Shown one piece after another: positions 55,537 to 64,000 of a DNA stretch of 64,000 nt. The position numbers and the translations under genes were made by a program. Under the pieces are notes generated by a model. That model was given only the letters and a program-made list of their open reading frames with translations. It made no database searches and was not told the origin of the DNA. Each line of letters begins with the position of its first letter. The stretch's first letter is position 1. Location: NCBI RefSeq assembly GCF_001693735.1, contig NZ_LWDV01000009.1:294589-358588 (forward strand). The letters are read 5' to 3'. Origin of the DNA: Orenia metallireducens. Its GTDB lineage: Bacteria > Bacillota > Halanaerobiia > Halobacteroidales > Halobacteroidaceae.

Positions 55537-56010
55537 ATGAATAAACTTACTAAAAAGGATATGCTAGATATAGCTCGTGAGATGATGAATATGAAGAGAG
55601 AGTGGCATGAAAATCCTAATAATGAGGATTTAAGCTTTCTAATTCAGCAGATATATCTATCGATTGAAAATGAGTTGGAAGCAGCAGCGTATTATAAGGC
55701 TTTAGCAAAGATAGCTCCTAATCAATTCGCAGCAGAGATGTTATCAGAGTTTGCTGATGATGAAAGGGGGCATGCTTATCAGTTTCAAAAGGCCTATGAA
55801 AGATTAACGGGAAATCCTTATAAGCCACCAACAGAGTTTGAATTTGAGTTTGAATTAGAAGCAGATGACTATGAAGAATATTTAGAAAGTAGGATTTTAG
55901 ATGAAACGGCTGATTTTAAAAAATATAAGAATTTTTATCTTATGACAAATAACCCATATTTAAGAGATATATTTTTTGATGCTATGCATGATGATTCGTG
56001 CATATGTTAA
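55537..56010 (+). CDS. Ferritin-like (rubrerythrin-type) spore coat protein, 3'-truncated
   Basis: A 157-residue four-helix protein. IENELEAAAYYKALAKIAP supplies the first E of the di-iron site and DDERGHAYQFQKAYERLTG the ExxH partner. The second half repeats the plan (RILDETADFKKYKNFY.. and IFFDAMHDDSCIC*). Relatives end in D-E-x-x-H-A followed by a last helix; here the frame stops just before that His. The final ~15-20 residues are missing, next to the recombinase gene 36 bases away. GAGGAGG precedes the ATG. Confidence 0.7.
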   Translation: MNKLTKKDMLDIAREMMNMKREWHENPNNEDLSFLIQQIYLSIENELEAAAYYKALAKIAPNQFAAEMLSEFADDERGHAYQFQKAYERLTGNPYKPPTEFEFEFELEADDYEEYLESRILDETADFKKYKNFYLMTNNPYLRDIFFDAMHDDSCIC

Positions 56011-56015
56011 TTATG

Positions 56016-56048
56016 AATTTAGCCCCGTTAAAAATGGGGCTAAATTTT
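56016..56048. terminator. Bidirectional terminator between coat gene and recombinase
   Basis: AAATTTAGCCCC pairs with GGGGCTAAATTT around a short A-rich loop. It touches the recombinase stop codon and lies 6 bases after the truncated coat gene. Confidence 0.88.
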
Positions 56049-57627
56049 AAAAGTAGTACTCTAGATCAATCTTTCCTTTATCATAGATAATCTTTTTAAT
56101 GATACTCTGTAAGAGGTTTCTTTGGTCTTCAAAGTTCATAGTATCAAAATTTTCTTCAAATAGGTCTAACTGGCTTCTTAGATATTCTTCAGAGTAGAGC
56201 TCATTAGAGTGTTCTAGGATTTGGCTATCTATACTCTGTAGCTCAAGCTCTAATTTATTTCTTTTAGCAGCCAGTTCCTCTGCTTCTTCTTCAATGATAG
56301 TGATTAGGTGTTCAGAGCTTAACTTCTTAAGTTTACTGATTAAATTCTTCTCTTCAGCAGTTATCTCCTTTAATTTAGTATTAATCTCTTCTGCTTTATT
56401 CTTCAAAAGGGTGATAGATTCCTGGAGTTCATCCTTCAAATTTCCAATCTCTTTACTTAGATTGTCCTTTTTACATAATTCTTTAAGGCGAGCGATTACT
56501 AAATTCTCAGCATACTCAGCTTTAGTGGATTGACCTTCACAGACTATCTCTCCCATGTTGCGGCCTCGACATTTATAGTAGCTATAGTCTTTCTTGCTAC
56601 CATCAGCTAAAGTCTTAGTAGAAGAGTAATAGGTCATAGCCCTACCACAATCAGAGCATTTGAGTAGATAGGCTAATAGTCCTTTGACTCCAGTTCCTGC
56701 TCTAGAAGGTCTATTTGCTCGTCTGTCACGCTTTCTCTGAGTCTTAATATAAAGATCAGAAGAGACTATCCCATTATGTTCTGCTACAGCTATGAGCCAT
56801 TTAGATTTATCTCTAACTGCACCGATTTCATTTTTAGACTTTCTACGGTTATATCTAAGCAGTGCTTTTTTTCCATCGATTGCTTCTTGATTAAAGACCT
56901 CTATATCCTGCTTCTCAAAGTAAGCTATAATTTCCTTATCAGCAATGCAATAGAGGGGATTGGCCAAAATTTCACCAATGCGTGATGGAGCCCAGGTCTT
57001 ACCGTTAGAAGATTTAATCTTGGCTTTGTTGGCCCGTTGAGCAATCTGATTGAGGCTTCCTCCAGGCTCTAGATACCAGGTATAGAATTGTTTAATTATT
57101 TCTGCTTCTTCTTGATTTATCTCTAAGCCTTCATCGGTTAAGTTATATCCATAGGGGGTGGTCCCACCATTCCATTGACCATTGGCTGCATTTCTAAGTA
57201 AATTATCTTTGACTCTCTCTGAGGTCATTTCACTTTCAAACTGGGCAAAGTCTACTAGTATATTTCTAATAAGTCTACCGATAGGGGTAGAGGTATCAAA
57301 CTGTTGGGTAATAGAGACAAAGTTGACCTCATACTTATCTAGTACCTTCATATAATTATGGAAGTCGGTAACTGATCTAGCAAAGCGGTCTAGTTTGTAG
57401 ACCATTAGATAGTCAGCATTTAGGTTATCTCGCTTGATGTTTTGAAATAGCTTTTGAAAGGCTGGTCTATTAGAAGAGCGACCAGAGTAGTCTAGGTCTA
57501 TGTAAGTGTCTACTAGCTCAATATCTTGTAGCTTGCAGTATTGTTTGATCTTTTCTAATTGAGTATCTTGGGTAATCATTCCATCGCGGGCTTTTGATAC
57601 TCTGATATAGGCTATAGCTTTTTTCAT
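56047..57627 (-). CDS. Large serine recombinase (phage/skin-element integrase type)
   Basis: A 526-residue site-specific recombinase. The catalytic resolvase domain spans ~1-145 (nucleophile S11 in YIRVSKARDG; YKLDRFARS). The recombinase domain is ~155-270 (GTTPYGY). A zinc ribbon has C324, C327, C353 and C363, and a long coiled coil covers ~390-510. Such enzymes integrate and excise prophages and the sigK skin element without host factors, aided by a directionality factor. The frame is intact. It converges on the truncated ferritin-like gene. Confidence 0.95.
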   Translation of the reverse strand: MKKAIAYIRVSKARDGMITQDTQLEKIKQYCKLQDIELVDTYIDLDYSGRSSNRPAFQKLFQNIKRDNLNADYLMVYKLDRFARSVTDFHNYMKVLDKYEVNFVSITQQFDTSTPIGRLIRNILVDFAQFESEMTSERVKDNLLRNAANGQWNGGTTPYGYNLTDEGLEINQEEAEIIKQFYTWYLEPGGSLNQIAQRANKAKIKSSNGKTWAPSRIGEILANPLYCIADKEIIAYFEKQDIEVFNQEAIDGKKALLRYNRRKSKNEIGAVRDKSKWLIAVAEHNGIVSSDLYIKTQRKRDRRANRPSRAGTGVKGLLAYLLKCSDCGRAMTYYSSTKTLADGSKKDYSYYKCRGRNMGEIVCEGQSTKAEYAENLVIARLKELCKKDNLSKEIGNLKDELQESITLLKNKAEEINTKLKEITAEEKNLISKLKKLSSEHLITIIEEEAEELAAKRNKLELELQSIDSQILEHSNELYSEEYLRSQLDLFEENFDTMNFEDQRNLLQSIIKKIIYDKGKIDLEYYF

Positions 57628-58174: not shown

Positions 58175-58316
58175 CTTTAACTCCTTTTAAAAATTTTTGT
58201 TGTAAACTCTTTTTTAGGTGCTACTTACCCCAAGAATTATCTTATAGCATTAGTTTAATCATCTGCTTAATATCTCTTTAAATAAATTAGATAATCAAGT
58301 GGAGTAGGGGAGTCTT

Positions 58317-58357
58317 TATAACGTTTAGGTATTGCCGCTGGCAATACTGTGTTAGAC
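58317..58357 (-). repeat. attC-like site A (short form)
   Basis: On the minus strand it starts GTCTAAC, an exact RYYYAAC core, and ends CGTTATA. Between them GTATTGCC and GGCAATAC form a perfect 8-bp stem around AGC. At ~41 bp it is short for an attC but has the expected order of cores and stem. It lies 13 bases after the methyltransferase stop. Confidence 0.6.
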
Positions 58358-58370
58358 GATCGTAGGCTTT

Positions 58371-59039
58371 TTACTTTACTCCTACATAAATAGCTGCTTC
58401 TTTTTTCTTGAATATTAAATCAAATTTACGATAGCCAACCTCTTTGAATAACTTTTCCTGTGTTTTTATTGAAAATGGTATATCAATATGGAAAAAACCA
58501 TCAGTTAAATTCTCTTGATTCATTTGCTTTTTAAATTGTTTTAATAATCTTTTTTCTTTTCCTTCCGAAACAACATAGTCACCTTCTATATACTTACCAT
58601 TATTATTTAAAGATTTTAAAATCTTTGTGTATAATTTCTTTTTGGTATCATAAAGCAAATGATGAATAGTCATAACTGAAACTACATAATCAAATTTGTT
58701 TTCCCCAAATTCTAATGTAAGATAAGAATCTTTAACAACATTAATTTGATCTACTTTATCTTGATACTTCTTTAATAATATTTCTAACATCTCAGCAGAA
58801 ACATCTACCCCTATTATCCGTGCATTAGGAGCTTTTTCAAATATATATTTTAACTCTAAGCCAGTTCCACAACCTATATCTAATATCTTTATTTTTTCAT
58901 TTGTTTTAATAATTGGATCAGCAATTGTTTTGTAAAATTCTTCAAAGTTATTAACATTATTTTTCATGTATTCATCATATGATGCTGCTCTTTTATTAAA
59001 AAATTCATTCATCTTTTCTGACTTGTTTATTTCAACCAT
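58371..59039 (-). CDS. Class I SAM-dependent methyltransferase
   Basis: A 222-residue methyltransferase. ILDIGCGTGLELKYIF is the SAM-binding motif I, IGVDVSAEML motif II, and FDYVVSVMTIHHL motif IV. The substrate is not readable; the size fits small-molecule or ubiquinone/menaquinone-type enzymes, but no such pathway is nearby. It is the leftmost gene of the cassette-like array, with attC-like sites on both sides. Confidence 0.88.
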   Translation of the reverse strand: MVEINKSEKMNEFFNKRAASYDEYMKNNVNNFEEFYKTIADPIIKTNEKIKILDIGCGTGLELKYIFEKAPNARIIGVDVSAEMLEILLKKYQDKVDQINVVKDSYLTLEFGENKFDYVVSVMTIHHLLYDTKKKLYTKILKSLNNNGKYIEGDYVVSEGKEKRLLKQFKKQMNQENLTDGFFHIDIPFSIKTQEKLFKEVGYRKFDLIFKKKEAAIYVGVK

Positions 59040-59101
59040 TTACTTATCACTTCCTTTATTTTAAATTAAGACAATCAATATCTACCCACTAGGCCTATGT
59101 C

Positions 59102-59236
59102 AGATAACGTCCCGCAGCTTCGCGACGTCCCATCAATGCTCCTATAATTTAGTTTAATGCAACCTAAATTTCATAAGTCAGCTCCAGCTCCTATTTATGC
59201 ACTGCAACTGGATGTCGCTAAGATGCTGTTATATGA
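59102..59236 (-). repeat. attC-like site B
   Basis: About 135 bp. The left arm (AGATAACGTCCCGCAG then TTCGCGACGTCC) is imperfectly complementary to the right arm (GGATGTCGCTAAGATG then CTGTTATATGA). The loop contains CATAAGTCAGC, shared with sites C and G. It begins 63 bases before the methyltransferase start and ends 49 bases after the GATase stop. The AAC and GTT core triplets are in place; the flanking core bases match RYYYAAC only partly. Confidence 0.7.
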
Positions 59237-59284
59237 AGAACCACGCCCCACATAACTGCATCTTTATTTGCAATCATAAAAATC

Positions 59285-59983
59285 CTATCTGTAAGCTGCT
59301 TTAATAAAACCAGTAATTAATGGATGAGGCTTTTCATTTGTCGATCTAGTTTGGGGAACAAACAAAGTTCCGATATAAAATTTATGGTTAGGAAGTTCTA
59401 TAATTCTTGCTTCTTGAGTATCATCAATTCCTACAACTTTTAGCCCTGCCTTATCAATCTTTTTTTGATAATCAGGATTTAAACCAAAATTACAATAATA
59501 CTTTTCTTCAATTTTAGTTTCATTATATAAGGAAAATACTTTAGATTGTTTATTTGTAATTGTAATGGGTAATTTCTTACCTGCAAGTGAACAATTCAAC
59601 TTGTTAATTATCAATTTTGAAGAATAAGGGTCATATTCAGCATGTTGAGATTCTTCTATTCCCATAATATTACGAGCATATTCTAACACAAGATGTTGAA
59701 AACCTCCACATGTTCCAAAAGTAGGGATATTATTTTCACGCACATATTGAATACAATTCAAAGCCCCTACTAAACTTTTATAAGGACTCCCTGGTGCTAT
59801 CCAAACAGCATCATATTCTGCTATAGGTTCTAAATTCTTCTTATTTTTAAACATTTCAGTTGAAAACCATTTTACTGATGTTTCAACTCCTAAATTATTT
59901 GCAGAATGCTTAATAGCTTTGTTCAGACTAGAATGTGGATTAAAATCAGGTTCATATTCTCCTATAACTGCAATCTCTATCAT
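59285..59983 (-). CDS. CTP-synthase C-terminal-like GATase domain protein, triad altered
   Basis: A 232-residue stand-alone class-I glutamine amidotransferase fold. It has the oxyanion-type GSPYKSLVGAL and a nucleophile elbow with Cys92 (GTCGGFQH). At residues 208-211, where active enzymes have FHPE with the catalytic His and Glu, it reads FVPQ, followed by PHPLITGFIKAA as in CTP synthases. Hydrolysis of glutamine is therefore unlikely. Related stand-alone proteins are known as CTP synthase C-terminal region-related proteins; their function is unknown. Confidence 0.85.
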   Translation of the reverse strand: MIEIAVIGEYEPDFNPHSSLNKAIKHSANNLGVETSVKWFSTEMFKNKKNLEPIAEYDAVWIAPGSPYKSLVGALNCIQYVRENNIPTFGTCGGFQHLVLEYARNIMGIEESQHAEYDPYSSKLIINKLNCSLAGKKLPITITNKQSKVFSLYNETKIEEKYYCNFGLNPDYQKKIDKAGLKVVGIDDTQEARIIELPNHKFYIGTLFVPQTRSTNEKPHPLITGFIKAAYR

Positions 59984-60032
59984 TTCTTTTTTCCTCCTTA
60001 AAAATTTTTTATCTTAAAGTTGCGTGGTCTTT

Positions 60033-60167
60033 CACATAACGTCCCGCAGGTTCGCGACGTCCCCATCAACACTCCTTACCTCTAATTAAAAATACAAGCT
60101 CACATAAGTCAGCCTCACTTTCACTTATCCTCGCTAGGTGGGATGTAGCTAATCCGCTGTTAGGTGA
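60033..60167 (-). repeat. attC-like site C
   Basis: About 135 bp and closely related to sites B and G. The left arm is CACATAACGTCCCGCAGG and the right arm ends GGGATGTAGCTAATCC then GCTGTTAGGTGAA. On the minus strand the first core is ACCTAAC, an exact RYYYAAC. The loop carries CACATAAGTCAGCC. It lies between the HNH stop and the GATase start. Confidence 0.75.
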
Positions 60168-60183
60168 AGTTGACCAACCACCA

Positions 60184-61035
60184 TTAATCAGAAAATTCTT
60201 CTTTCATTTTTTTAGCCCATGCTAATGATTTCTTTGAATCTCCTAAATATCTGTTAACTTTTGAAATCCTCATAAATCCTCCAATTGGCTTAGAAGTAGC
60301 ACCAATAATTAATCCCCCTTGGACATTCTCTGTAAAATTACCTTGAACTAACATATTATTATTGGTTATTAACATATGGTCTTCATCTATTAAAATTTCT
60401 ACACCATTACAAAGAAATCTGCCTTTTTTAATACTAATCTTATTAGGTGGTTCAAATGTTATTCTGATTAAAAATTTTCTTGCTTTTTCTCGAACAGTAA
60501 GAGTTTGTCCTACTAACTCAATATCCCAAGGGCTAGTTGAATATACAAGTTCATTATTACTTATTTGTAGCACTAAATTATTAAACTTATCAAATAAATT
60601 AATATTTAGAAATAATTGATTATCCTCTAAAACAAACCCCACTAATGGAATTCCATCAATAATTAAAGGGATCATTTCAGTAATCTGGCTTTTGATATTT
60701 GCAGAAAAAACATTTCCGCCAATATCTACTTCACAAGAGTTATCATCAAAGTGGAGTGATAAAGGGCTACTAGAACCTTTCCTTAAATTATAAGGATTTT
60801 TATTAGCTTCAAAAACTTTTTCTCTAGGTAAAAGACCTGTTGTTACTTCCTTATGATGCTTATCGCACAACAAAGTGATATCTTCCGCTTTATGTTCTTG
60901 AACCTTCGACCATTCTTTCATATGGTCATATTCATAAAGAGGAAATCCACATATTACACATCCAAATCCACACCTTTGCCTCACTTCTCTTTTTATAGGT
61001 AATGGTATATTTCTACTATTGTTTTTATTAGACAT
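60184..61035 (-). CDS. HNH endonuclease-domain protein
   Basis: A 283-residue protein. Residues ~10-85 are an HNH/treble-clef nuclease: CGFGCVICGFPLYEYDHMKEW, then DITLLCDKHHKEVTTG, with CxxC pairs and the DH and HH catalytic residues. The C-terminal ~190 residues are beta-rich and unrecognised; they could bind DNA or act as a sensor. ATG 61035 behind GGAGGG is preferred over GTG 61065, which lies in an attC-like arm. Cassette genes with HNH domains may be defence or modification-dependent nucleases; that is inference. Confidence 0.8.
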   Translation of the reverse strand: MSNKNNSRNIPLPIKREVRQRCGFGCVICGFPLYEYDHMKEWSKVQEHKAEDITLLCDKHHKEVTTGLLPREKVFEANKNPYNLRKGSSSPLSLHFDDNSCEVDIGGNVFSANIKSQITEMIPLIIDGIPLVGFVLEDNQLFLNINLFDKFNNLVLQISNNELVYSTSPWDIELVGQTLTVREKARKFLIRITFEPPNKISIKKGRFLCNGVEILIDEDHMLITNNNMLVQGNFTENVQGGLIIGATSKPIGGFMRISKVNRYLGDSKKSLAWAKKMKEEFSD

Positions 61036-61061
61036 ATTCTTTCCCTCCATATTGGTCAATT

Positions 61062-61228
61062 TCACCTAACTTGTATATTAACGACATACTTCGTTTAACT
61101 CCCTAAATAAGAAGTATTAACGACATGTGTAATAAATTCCTGCTATTTAGTGGTATTAACGACATATGTCGTTAATATTCTTTTAAATAAATTCTCTAAT
61201 TTAATATCAGTCTCATAATTGCTTCCCT
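61062..61228 (-). repeat. Cassette-type non-coding repeat, copy 1, left half
   Basis: It begins with a core-like TCACCTAAC and contains TATTAACGACAT three times, ending in the perfect palindrome TTAACGACATATGTCGTTAA (61156-61175). It matches 62877-63040 closely. The match stops at ATAATTGCTTCCCT, where DNA carrying the LysE gene begins. Confidence 0.75.
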
Positions 61229-61299
61229 TAGTAATAGAGTAAATTTGATACACCATTCACAGTTACCCTTTGAAATATATATTCTAGATTTAGAAGTAA

Positions 61300-61938
61300 T
61301 CACTTACTCTCAGATGAATTTCTTATAATTTCTATAATTCTTAATATACCATAACCTATTAAAATGAAAGCAACTAACATGTTAGCCAATTGAACGATTA
61401 ATGGTGAGATCAATGTTTTTAATATTGTTATAATGAATATAGAGACACTAAGGAAAAGAGGTGTAGCAAAACCTGCTGACAATCCAAAGATCACTAACTC
61501 TTTTTTGCTTAAGGAATATTCAACTGATCTAGCTGCAAATACGCTAGTCCAAAAAAGAATTGTTAATGGACTAGATATAGTCAATAAAAAAGCTGAAATA
61601 AAACTTTTAAATAGATTTGATGAGGGGTCATTTATAGTTAAACTAATATTAACAGAATTTGAAATACTTATAGCCATATAAAAGCCAAAAGCAATAAGAA
61701 CAATGGAACTGATAGTTCCTAAAGTTTTTTTGATCTTTTTCTTTTCTAATAATTTACCTATTCCAGCGATAGCCAGTGCTATATATAAGTAATCTACAAT
61801 TGTTACAGCAGCAACTGCAAATAATCCATCGATTAAAGATTTTTGAAGTGCAAGATTTGCTAGAAAGAAGAAGACAGGTCCTATGGCTATTTGTAGAATC
61901 AATCCTGTTGATAGACCTCTTAAGAATACTTTTTTCAT
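61300..61938 (-). CDS. LysE-family amino-acid exporter
   Basis: A 212-residue membrane protein with six hydrophobic segments. GLSTGLILQIAIGPVFFFLANLALQKS at the N-terminus and the central NDPSSNLFKSFISAFLLTISSPLTILFW match LysE/RhtB exporters. Substrates are basic or other amino acids. AAGGAGG precedes the ATG. The gene sits inside a repeat unit that is uninterrupted elsewhere in the array. Confidence 0.88.
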   Translation of the reverse strand: MKKVFLRGLSTGLILQIAIGPVFFFLANLALQKSLIDGLFAVAAVTIVDYLYIALAIAGIGKLLEKKKIKKTLGTISSIVLIAFGFYMAISISNSVNISLTINDPSSNLFKSFISAFLLTISSPLTILFWTSVFAARSVEYSLSKKELVIFGLSAGFATPLFLSVSIFIITILKTLISPLIVQLANMLVAFILIGYGILRIIEIIRNSSESK

Positions 61939-61979
61939 TTAATAAAGTCCTCCTTTAAGGATGGGAGTCATCCTAATAG

Positions 61980-62196
61980 TATAATTACTTCCCTCATAAA
62001 GTAGAGTAGGGAAGGGGTAATCAAAACCCCCTTAACAAAAATAATATATATTACTTCTCCATGATTGACAACAATACCAATAGTAGATGATGAGTAATGC
62101 TAAATAAGCTTAAAGATGAAGTAGTGGAGCTAGTATAGAAGTACTGTTGTTGATTGTTAGCTTATTTATTATAGTGACTAAAGTTGTTATGTGAAG
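61980..62196 (-). repeat. Cassette-type non-coding repeat, copy 1, right half
   Basis: It resumes at ATAATTACTTCCCT and matches 63026-63186 (AACAATACCAATAG, GATGAGTAAT, AAATAAGCTTAAAG, GTAGTGGAGCTAGTATAG). It ends in GTTATGTGAAG (62186-62196), the same shape as the right arms of attC-like sites B and C. Confidence 0.72.
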
Positions 62197-62207
62197 ACTA
62201 CGGGGTT

Positions 62208-62300
62208 ACATAACGTACCAGGGATTTAAGAATTTTATGTTGGCTTAGGTTCATAAATTTGGATGGAGCGTAGCGGAATCTTAAATCCCATGTTATACGA
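62208..62300 (-). repeat. attC-like site E
   Basis: About 93 bp. ACATAACGTACCAGGG on the left and CCCATGTTATACGA on the right enclose a perfect 11-bp stem GGGATTTAAGA / TCTTAAATCCC. The inner loop differs from sites B, C and G. It ends 9 bases after the kinase stop, and its left end follows the LysE-containing repeat. Confidence 0.68.
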
Positions 62301-62309
62301 TCGTTCAGT

Positions 62310-62852
62310 TTATGCGAAGTAATTAATTGCTTCTTTTATAGTTTTCTTAAAATCCTTTCCAGTATCAATAAAAGGAATATTATATTCTTCACATTTCTTT
62401 TTAACTTCAATACTTTCATCAATATACTCCTGTATTATTGCCTTTAATTCTTCCTCTGATAATGACTCTGTCCAGTCAGAAGAACGTGAATATTTTCTAA
62501 TAAAATTATACTTGTCTTCAAGACTTATTTCTGTATAACCAAAATAAATTATTTTACTGATTTTATCTAATTCATATTTTCTAACATCATCAGGAGTAAG
62601 TTGATATATGTCGATTACCACTGATATATCTTCATAATTTATATGTTTGATTAGTTCTTTAAGGAAAGGTGCTACTCTTTTGCTAACAACTTTATAGTTA
62701 TCATAATGAGTTATTCCTAAATTCGGATACAATTTATTAAAAGTTGATACAAAACTATCAAACGGTATATATGAATAATTATGAGCTTCAGAAGTAGTTT
62801 TAGCGACTGTTGATTTTCCTGATCTTGGAATTCCAGCAATTATTATTATCAT
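62310..62852 (-). CDS. P-loop NTPase / small-molecule kinase-like protein
   Basis: A 180-residue P-loop protein with Walker A GIPRSGKST at the N-terminus, an Asp-containing FDSFVSTF segment and VVIDIYQLTPDDV as the second strand. The layout resembles nucleoside or antibiotic kinases of the zeta-toxin/AAA_33 group. The substrate is unknown. There is no strong ribosome binding site, as is common for integron cassette genes. Confidence 0.78.
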   Translation of the reverse strand: MIIIIAGIPRSGKSTVAKTTSEAHNYSYIPFDSFVSTFNKLYPNLGITHYDNYKVVSKRVAPFLKELIKHINYEDISVVIDIYQLTPDDVRKYELDKISKIIYFGYTEISLEDKYNFIRKYSRSSDWTESLSEEELKAIIQEYIDESIEVKKKCEEYNIPFIDTGKDFKKTIKEAINYFA

Positions 62853-62876
62853 AGTATCACTCTTTCTCTAAATGAA

Positions 62877-63186
62877 TGTCATATAACTTGTATCTTGACG
62901 ACATACTTTGTTTAAACCTCTAAATAAGAAGTATTAACGACTTCCTGCTATTTAGTGGTATTAACGATATATGTCATTAATATTTTCTTAAATAAGTTCT
63001 CTAATTAATATCAATATCACAATTACTTCCCTCACCAAACAGAGTAGGGGAGAGGTAATCAAAATATTTCTAATAAAAATAATATGTATTATCTCTCCAT
63101 GGTTGGCAACAATACCAATAGGAGGGGATGAGTAATATTAAATAAGCTTAAAGGTGAAAGTAGTGGAGCTAGTATAGAAGTACTAT
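62877..63186 (-). repeat. Cassette-type non-coding repeat, copy 2 (uninterrupted)
   Basis: It begins TGTCATATAAC and runs through TATTAACGAC and ATTACTTCCCT to GTAGTGGAGCTAGTATAG without a gene. It equals the two halves at 61062-61228 and 61980-62150 joined. The palindrome of copy 1 is degraded here (TTAACGATATATGTCATTAA). The rest of 63187-63370 is AT-rich and gene-free. Confidence 0.72.
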
Positions 63187-63370
63187 TATCTGATGTTGCG
63201 GATTCTCAATATTAACTAACACGCCACTAATATTTTTAATGCATTATCAACCAATTTAACAACAGTTATTATTTATTGTCAAAATTTAATAAATTATTAT
63301 TTAAGTAAAAAATATTTGCTTTTAAACTTTTTATAATTGAAATTACTAATTTTTCTTTATGATTTTTTTG

Positions 63371-63778
63371 TTACTTTTTTCTTTTAGTCAAACAATCATC
63401 TTTTTTAAACCCAAATTTCTCATATAGGCTATGGGCATCTCTAGTTTTCAAAAGCTGCAAAGATACATTCTTTATACTAGGATGATTTGTTGTGGTTTTT
63501 ACAAGCCATTTTCCCAAACCATTTCCTCTATGCTTTTCATCTATAAATACATCAGCAATCCAAGCAAATGCAGCTTTATCAGTTACTATTCTAGTAAAAC
63601 CTATTTGTTTTTTATTTTTGAATAAAGATATAAAGATCGAGTTATCTATCGAATTTATTATAATTTCTCGTGTCCTATTATTTGCCCAATATGTTTTATG
63701 TAAAGAATTAACAACAAAATCAATGTTAATTTTTTCTTTATCATCTGTTATCAAATAATCATCTTTTCTGATTTCCAT
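63371..63778 (-). CDS. GNAT-family N-acetyltransferase
   Basis: A 135-residue acetyltransferase. The acetyl-CoA motif is DVFIDEKHRGNGLGKWLV (R/Q-x-x-G-x-G/A), and SLYEKFGFKK is the usual last strand region. The N-terminal RTREIIINSIDNSIFISL is also typical. The acceptor is unknown. AAAGGAG precedes the ATG. GNAT genes are frequent integron cassettes. Confidence 0.9.
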   Translation of the reverse strand: MEIRKDDYLITDDKEKINIDFVVNSLHKTYWANNRTREIIINSIDNSIFISLFKNKKQIGFTRIVTDKAAFAWIADVFIDEKHRGNGLGKWLVKTTTNHPSIKNVSLQLLKTRDAHSLYEKFGFKKDDCLTKRKK

Positions 63779-63865
63779 AGTTTAATCTCCTTTTGTCATT
63801 TATCTTTAACCTACTACAATATTAACTAATTAAAAAATAATTTCTATCAATAATCTCAAAAGCAA

Positions 63866-64000
63866 TGTCAGATAACGTCCCGCAGGTTCGTGACGTCCTT
63901 GCTAACGCTCCTAGCCTAAATCAAAACTACAATCTTACATAAGTCAGCCCCAACCCTCATTTATACACCTTAACTGGGATGTTGCTAATCTTATGTTATG
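63866..64000 (-). repeat. attC-like site G (cut by window edge)
   Basis: The left arm TGTCAGATAACGTCCCGCAG, then GTTCGTGACGTCC, the loop ACATAAGTCAGCCCC and the start of the right arm TGGGATGTTGCTAATC match sites B and C closely. The window ends inside the final GTTATG, so the right core is incomplete. Its presence shows that the array continues to the right. Confidence 0.72.

Follow-up and report, generated by a model that had tools for sequence, protein, structure and literature searches.

Genes and sites of the array

The 64,000-nucleotide stretch of Orenia metallireducens DNA analysed here (hereafter the window, C9:294589-358588 in a genome of 3.47 Mb) closes with 5.7 kb that hold six unrelated open reading frames (ORFs), all on the minus strand, with palindromes 3' of four of the genes. 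This report concerns that region as part of an integron-like array of gene cassettes spanning C9:352.9-373.5 kb, together with the attC-like and attI-like sequences among its genes and the tyrosine recombinase that is the candidate for moving them. The genes and sites within the window are listed by window position, with lengths in nucleotides (nt) and the evidence for each in brackets.

58316..58357, minus strand: attC-like site A, short type of about 42 nt, the last of the array (sequence)
58371..59039, minus strand: S-adenosylmethionine (SAM)-dependent methyltransferase, cassette gene (Pfam PF13649, E 8e-20)
59102..59234, minus strand: attC-like site B, 133 nt (covariance model (CM) R1, 104 bits, E 4.4e-20, training-set member; repeats)
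59285..59983, minus strand: class-I glutamine amidotransferase-like (GATase) protein, cassette gene (Pfam PF00117, E 7e-17)
60034..60165, minus strand: attC-like site C, 132 nt (CM R1, 109.9 bits, E 2.5e-21, training-set member)
60184..61065, minus strand: HNH-like protein, cassette gene (phage family phrog_6544)
61058..61200, minus strand: attI-like repeat region within the array (repeats; motif found genome-wide at integron loci only)
61300..61938, minus strand: LysE-type transporter, without an attC-like site on its 3' side (Pfam PF01810, E 2e-17)
62208..62298, minus strand: attC-like site E, 91-nt type (CM R1, 61.7 bits, E 4.2e-11, training-set member)
62310..62852, minus strand: AAA_18 P-loop protein, cassette gene (Pfam PF13238)
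62875..63006 (C9:357549), minus strand: second attI-like repeat region within the array (repeats and motif search)
63013..63187, minus strand: non-coding unit upstream of the attI-like region (repeats; second copy at 61975-62148)
63371..63778, minus strand: GNAT acetyltransferase, followed by an attI-like unit (Pfam PF13508, E 1.5e-12)
63870-64001, minus strand: attC-like site G, running one base past the window end (C9:358458-358589; CM R1, 88.5 bits, E 9e-17)

A first-pass annotation of this DNA, drawn from the letters alone, had proposed six unrelated genes on one strand with palindromes between most of them. The genes are as it described, six minus-strand ORFs of distinct Pfam or phrog families, and the palindromes hold for four of them, whereas the LysE and GNAT genes (61300-61938 and 63371-63778) have as their 3' neighbour a unit of about 300 nt that ends in an attI-like repeat region rather than an attC-like site. 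Apart from these two genes, the region is a one-strand cassette array with an attC-like site for each gene. The sites had also been placed just 3' of stop codons, and the intervening distances are indeed short, at 13 (A), 50 (B), 18 (C) and 11 nt (E). The arms and ATAAGTCAGC loop reported as common to sites B, C and G are present, as are the RYYYAAC cores, the R'' box being GTCTAAC in site A and ACCTAAC in site C. Site A further comprises a stem, AGTATTGCC/GGCAATACC, and the R' box GTTATAA, and was left unscored by CM R1 on account of its shortness. Site E has a long, near-perfect L stem, GGGATTTAAGA/TCTTAAATCCC (fold z -2.4), and site G, which stood outside the training set of CM R1, was also matched in the genome-wide CM search. 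The two ends of the HNH-like cassette are complementary over 19 nt (61052-61070 with 60159-60177, 95%).

The attI-like region at 61058..61200 is built of TTAACGACATATGTCGTTAA repeats that run up to the cassette start GTTAGGTGAAATTGACC, 

Recurrence and anatomy of the attC-like sites

A 14-base core, ATAACGTCCCGCAG, occurs with at most one mismatch 17 times in the forward and not once in the reverse direction of the genome, as compared with 1 and 0 for a reversed-pattern control. These matches fall into four groups, at C9:353-372 kb, C9:738-756 kb, the end of C9 and C10:66-76 kb, and the CM search extends the second of these with further sites from 729 kb onward. In all, 75 attC-like sites were collected from the genome and its relatives, and the CM matches in the genome itself number 36. 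Several sequence families of 91 to 158 nt (site A being of about 42 nt) follow one layout, which on the coding strand reads NNNTAAC, A, an L'' arm (e.g. GCACCTTAGCGACATCCC), a variable centre, an L' arm (e.g. GGGACGTCGCGAAGCTGC), GGGAC and GTTANNN. The attributes by which attC sites are recognised, namely variable sequence with a conserved fold, an unpaired spacer and an extrahelical base, are found here, with a TCCC bulge and an L arm that contains an extra or mismatched base.

In an alignment of 37 sites, with the structure set by hand, 90.2% of the cells are paired (at most 44% in slid controls) and the cells with double changes number 112, as against 40 +/- 6 in shuffles and 10-23 in slid structures. 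Judged by mononucleotide shuffles, folding favours the bottom strand over the top in 54 of the 75 sites. No Rfam family matches the window sites, the one weak hit being to a microRNA family far below threshold.

Group II introns (RF02012, RF00029; D1D4-7 Rfam family) are inserted in attC-like sites, within the R' arm, both in this genome and in G002. They follow GTTANNYGACA, that is, they lie past R' position 11, and take the orientation of the cassettes at L021 (C10:72.3-75.5 kb), L041 (C9:736-738.7 kb), L042 and L169.

Cassette ends and boundaries

The start of a cassette is complementary to its own end over about 18 nt. When complementarity at no fewer than 10 of the 15 positions compared is taken as a pass, 93 of 127 consecutive pairs pass, compared with a mean of 3.1 and a maximum of 10 pairs for shuffled ends. 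At position 11 all 93 passing pairs have A in the cassette start and 91 of them have G in the reverse-complemented end, a combination that pairs as a wobble in the bottom strand and is mismatched in the top. Bottom- and top-strand wobbles stand at 128:16 overall, and the sites as they would be joined in a circle average -30.8 kcal/mol for the bottom strand and -26.9 for the top, against -20.4 in array form, the bottom strand being the better in 80 of 86. The strand bias in wobbles and fold energy is at most suggestive of recombination through the bottom strand. G003 carries one 620-nt cassette in three different settings, the breaks falling at G|TT.

Because a generic RYYYAAC/GTTRRRY finder returned almost nothing at the loci of integron integrases (IntI), a class 1 array was inspected by eye to serve as a control. 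Its cassette ends are complementary over 9-13 nt and have no A/G difference at position 11. Extended complementarity alone is therefore not unique to the arrays studied here; it is the length and position 11 that stand out.

The candidate recombinase

The sole intact candidate for the mobilising enzyme is a tyrosine recombinase encoded at C9:757348-758511, adjoining the 729-756-kb array. It carries the invariant catalytic residues of tyrosine recombinases, and its predicted domains are a HARP-like N-terminal domain (the N-terminal ~70 residues) and an Xer/IntI-like core, with no I2. The first-pass annotation had anticipated an integrase to the right of position 64,000, and in particular an IntI with its additional domain, and in both respects the expectation failed. 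No recombinase lies within ~50 kb rightward, the upstream end of the array being an attI-like region that abuts phage repressor genes without an adjoining recombinase, and an IntI with the additional domain is absent from the genome, the co-occurring recombinase being the I2-less one far from the window. That annotation had named the absence of an IntI from the genome, and palindromes unrelated to gene boundaries, as findings that would tell against it; the former is literally the case, while the palindromes are clearly related to gene boundaries.

No match to the TIGR02249 model above its cut-off was found in the genome or in 60 relatives, in a search without a built-in positive control; true IntIs, scored with the same model as a positive control, reach 422-476 bits. 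The candidate falls below the cut-off, its match being in two pieces, and has 15 residues where the integron integrase 2a3v has 57. The spacing of two conserved motifs is 58-60 residues in proteins without I2 (65 in a few of them) versus ~100 in true IntIs, and the tree unites the I2-bearing IntIs in a single clade (100/100) that leaves out the candidate family. The candidate does pass NF040815 (XerA_Arch, 'site-specific tyrosine recombinase/integron integrase'), at 231.8 bits versus an NCBIfam cut-off of 220, as do three of four relatives (L101, L072 and L077, with L109 below at 196). Its predicted structure (pLDDT, the predicted local distance difference test score, of 85) is nearest to 2a3v and XerA. 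With regard to SOS (LexA) control, a simple consensus, GAACNNNNGTTC, was not found within 250 nt upstream of 17 recombinase genes.

Two incomplete relatives of the gene are also encoded in the genome. A degraded recombinase lies beside attI-like repeats and a short array (L021:7661-7889; C10:77.7 kb), forming a decaying second platform, and at C8:685181-685516 (L189) a truncated recombinase gene holds the N-terminal domain alone before an assembly gap. That the latter was simply cut by a contig end was considered and rejected, as the ORF is truncated ahead of the gap.

Linkage of recombinase, attI-like region and arrays

Homologues of the recombinase are present in 26 of 61 genomes, and at least three sites are found in 22 of these 26 versus 7 of the 35 genomes without a homologue. 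At the recombinase loci of the relatives a motif finder places 50 sites on the strand of the recombinase and 3 on the opposite strand, with the array downstream; at other loci of HARP-bearing, I2-less recombinases (mostly from Bacteroidota) the corresponding counts are 38 and 3, and at 34 loci of related recombinases without the N-terminal domain they are 0 and 3. The zero that this finder returns at IntI loci is uninformative, because its motif was derived from I2-less systems. All sites share one orientation relative to the recombinase. Recombinase and array are paired in Bacteroidota too, as well as on a Chryseobacterium plasmid, and while the site pattern was absent from IMG/VR, a recombinase search of that database returned two contigs with arrays.

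In most of the genomes examined, TTAACGACAT-type repeats followed by GTTANRYG stand directly after the stop codon of the recombinase gene (the region being unbracketed in L065, L066, L077 and L078), which is the position and form expected of an attI by sequence. The ends of the first cassette are complementary at these attI-like regions, and the repeats have TTARCGACAT in common with the L arm of the sites. Within the genome the palindromic attI-like motif occurs at three integron loci only: the locus of the intact recombinase, the C10 locus with its degraded recombinase, and the window array.

Prophage setting of the window array

Left of the array, the window contains an integrase gene and one part of an interrupted host gene:

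55537..56010, plus strand: 5' part of a split host gene, ending beside the serine integrase gene (3' remnant at C9:404681-404755)
56047..57627, minus strand: large serine recombinase, the prophage integrase (phrog_95 integrase, E 3.6e-114)

To the right of the array are ImmA/repressor-like genes followed by terminase, portal, capsid, transglycosylase and lysis genes. The 3' remnant of the host gene matches at 76% over 25 residues, and the gene is whole in G002. Because the integrase, repressor and structural genes all lie between the halves of the host gene, the array is cargo of a prophage of ~54 kb, the ends of which were placed by the split gene, no direct repeat having been found there. 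The first-pass annotation had spoken of a sedentary chromosomal integron; what survives of that description is an integron-like array with homogeneous attC-like sites in a member of the (former) Firmicutes, and what does not is its status as an ordinary sedentary chromosomal integron, the array being carried by a prophage. As the window array has no recombinase of its own, any movement of its cassettes would need an enzyme supplied in trans. A prophage beside the same host gene in G001 has a 58% identical serine recombinase and repressor-like genes that adjoin the integrase, with no array there.

Elsewhere, the array includes a cassette for a putative enzyme of the streptomycin adenylyltransferase family (L018:7391-8275; PF04439, E 1e-80), and the array region encodes a 919-residue protein with HD-CE and HATPase domains (L018:14927-17686) that by its sequence resembles defence-type ATPases. 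A lone attC-like site lies just beyond the right end of the prophage (L023:18016-18146; C9:406.0 kb).

Discussion

It is highly probable, in our estimation, that an integron-like array has its distal end in this region, and that its cassettes are moved by an I2-less tyrosine recombinase with a HARP-like domain, acting on folded sites. The system appears to work like an integron, yet the standard definition of an IntI integron does not cover it, because I2 was looked for and is not there. A cassette would consist of one or a few genes and a folding recombination site. Once excised as a circle, its bottom strand would fold into a long hairpin with an outer arm of ~18 bp, in which a T.G wobble is invariant, then a bulge of 4 nt (TCCC) and then an inner arm of ~16 bp. 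The recombinase would bind this hairpin, with the HARP-like domain as its putative reader, and recombine it, in a strand-specific and single-stranded manner, with the double-stranded attI-like region (TTAACGACAT repeats and the terminal GTTANRYG) just downstream of its own gene, such that new cassettes would enter there by a crossover at or next to G|TT. The window array would then represent an orphan platform, with attI-like sites and cassettes and no recombinase, situated between prophage integrase and repressor and mobilised in trans.

A number of observations weigh against this interpretation. Taken singly, the window sites in array form have only a modest advantage in folding over shuffled sequence (z of -2.2, -0.2 and -2.4); the signal lies in the recurrence and covariation of the sites and in cassette-end complementarity rather than in any one hairpin. 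The match of the N-terminal region to HARP (PF07443) is weak, with 13 of 32 family members at E <=0.5 (best 5.2e-6) and the genome's own protein giving none, and the predicted beta-beta-alpha-beta-beta-alpha order of the N-terminus agrees with HARP in outline only. The Fisher test on the association of sites with recombinase (p 5e-7) overstates independence because the 61 genomes are related, and seven genomes have at least three sites and no full recombinase hit, though C-terminal fragments of the gene are kept in some such genomes (G011, G028 and G023). For Bacteroidota, end complementarity comes from few pairs, 5 of 32 passing, with the A/G of position 11 in all five. The recombinase would have to act on the window array in trans, from a gene ~400 kb away, and the case as a whole is built from sequence, with recombination itself as a prediction.

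These points must be considered alongside what the alternatives would have to explain. The anatomy of the array, its RYYYAAC/GTTRRRY-like boxes and its gene order resemble those of ordinary integrons, and clusters of attC sites lacking integron integrases (CALINs) are common (PMC9668308, PMC9024848); the region might on these grounds be the CALIN of a canonical sedentary chromosomal integron, with an I2-bearing IntI elsewhere or lost. We regard this as highly improbable in view of the TIGR02249 result and the scores of true IntIs, of the adjacency of sites to an I2-less recombinase in relatives and Bacteroidota, and of the match between the attI-like motif of the array and the region downstream of that recombinase. 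Host XerC/D or another of the tyrosine recombinases in the genome might move the cassettes with the HARP-bearing recombinase as a mere neighbour, a notion for which CTXphi offers a precedent, as XerCD, which has no I2, there uses a folded single-stranded site (PMC4792948). Such hijacking is quite improbable: it is the HARP-bearing, I2-less family that co-occurs and co-localises with arrays, its relatives without the N-terminal domain have no same-strand sites in 34 loci, and attI-like repeats sharing TTARCGACAT with the L arm directly follow the stop codon of the HARP-bearing recombinase in most genomes examined. That the palindromes are dispersed repeats (REP-like, that is, repetitive extragenic palindromic, elements, or terminators or other retained repeats) with no role in recombination is scarcely credible. 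While they lie 3' of stop codons, where they could terminate transcription, and their individual folds are modest, their structure is kept across differing site types, the start-end complementarity is specific to each cassette and lost on shuffling the ends, one cassette occurs in three contexts with G|TT boundaries, and the orientation relative to the recombinase is uniform.

Compatible with the integron-like reading, and bearing on present activity alone, is the idea that the prophage array is a frozen relic of true cassettes that no longer move. The window array has no recombinase, in the related prophage that G001 carries at this gene the integrase and repressor-like genes have no array between them, and the C10 and C8 copies of the recombinase are degraded and truncated; conversely, an intact recombinase gene resides in the same genome, and the complementarity of the first cassette, GTTAAGTGAAATTGGTC/GTTAAGTGAAGTTGGTC, is preserved. 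On balance we think a frozen state rather unlikely.

More broadly, we would give even chances to the proposal that these arrays belong to a separate and widespread integron lineage, in which HARP, long arms and the position-11 wobble of an I2-less, HARP-bearing recombinase system replace I2 and extrahelical bases, such that attC-type sites would have no need of I2 and may predate it. Cassette capture is said to need the I2 domain, which is described as having no known counterpart in other proteins (PMC7790495). How the domain arose has been framed as a chicken-and-egg paradox, since selection would have had to favour I2 in the absence of attC sites or attC sites in the absence of I2 (PMC4792948). 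Natural attC-like sites without I2 would make this question directly testable, and the system could help to show how integrons evolved. Complete integrons in Firmicutes have been reported from Limnochorda pilosa only (PMC9024848). The usual integron finder requires the IntI-specific domain (PMC9668308), and therefore I2-less platforms would escape it or be entered as CALINs; if our reading is true, the spread of cassette shuffling among halophilic anaerobes and Bacteroidota, and among their prophages and plasmids, would have been underestimated. No description of an I2-less integron-like system was found in the literature searched, which left out most subscription papers and preprints, and nothing relevant was found there on integrons in Halanaerobi or on a HARP domain with a tyrosine recombinase.

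Comparison with known systems

Prophage cassette arrays have been described before as phage-borne integrons and CALINs, by way of IntI and attC models (PMC9892861), the array here being of the I2-less family. Archaeal integrons (Ghaly et al. 2022, PMC9668308) are likewise found outside Proteobacteria and have attC-like arrays, but their IntIs have the IntI-specific domain, a feature on which their detection depended (PMC9668308). CTXphi and other XerCD-dependent elements share a folded single-stranded site and a recombinase without I2, yet lack a dedicated integrase, an attI-like platform and a multi-gene cassette array (PMC4792948). Group IIC-attC introns are oriented opposite to cassette transcription (PMC7923331), in contrast to the cassette-oriented introns past R' position 11 seen here. 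The Treponema-type integron integrase L158 (Treponema sp. RGIG10193) shares, as judged by eye, the HARP-like N-terminal region, and differs in its I2 insert and its true-IntI score of 421.7 bits; the co-existence of both domains in one protein may be informative on the order in which they were gained.

The closest likeness is to the IntI integrons themselves (class 1, the Vibrio superintegron and sedentary chromosomal integrons), with which the system shares cassettes of one or a few genes, folding sites of uniform orientation, RYYYAAC/GTTRRRY-like boxes, an attI-like region by a tyrosine recombinase, complementary cassette ends and a bottom strand favoured for folding. It departs from them in its recombinase, which has no I2, is placed outside the IntI clade, has a HARP-like domain at its N-terminus and reads toward the array, on the same strand, and it departs from the class 1 array in end complementarity of ~18 nt rather than 9-13 and in the invariant A/G at position 11.

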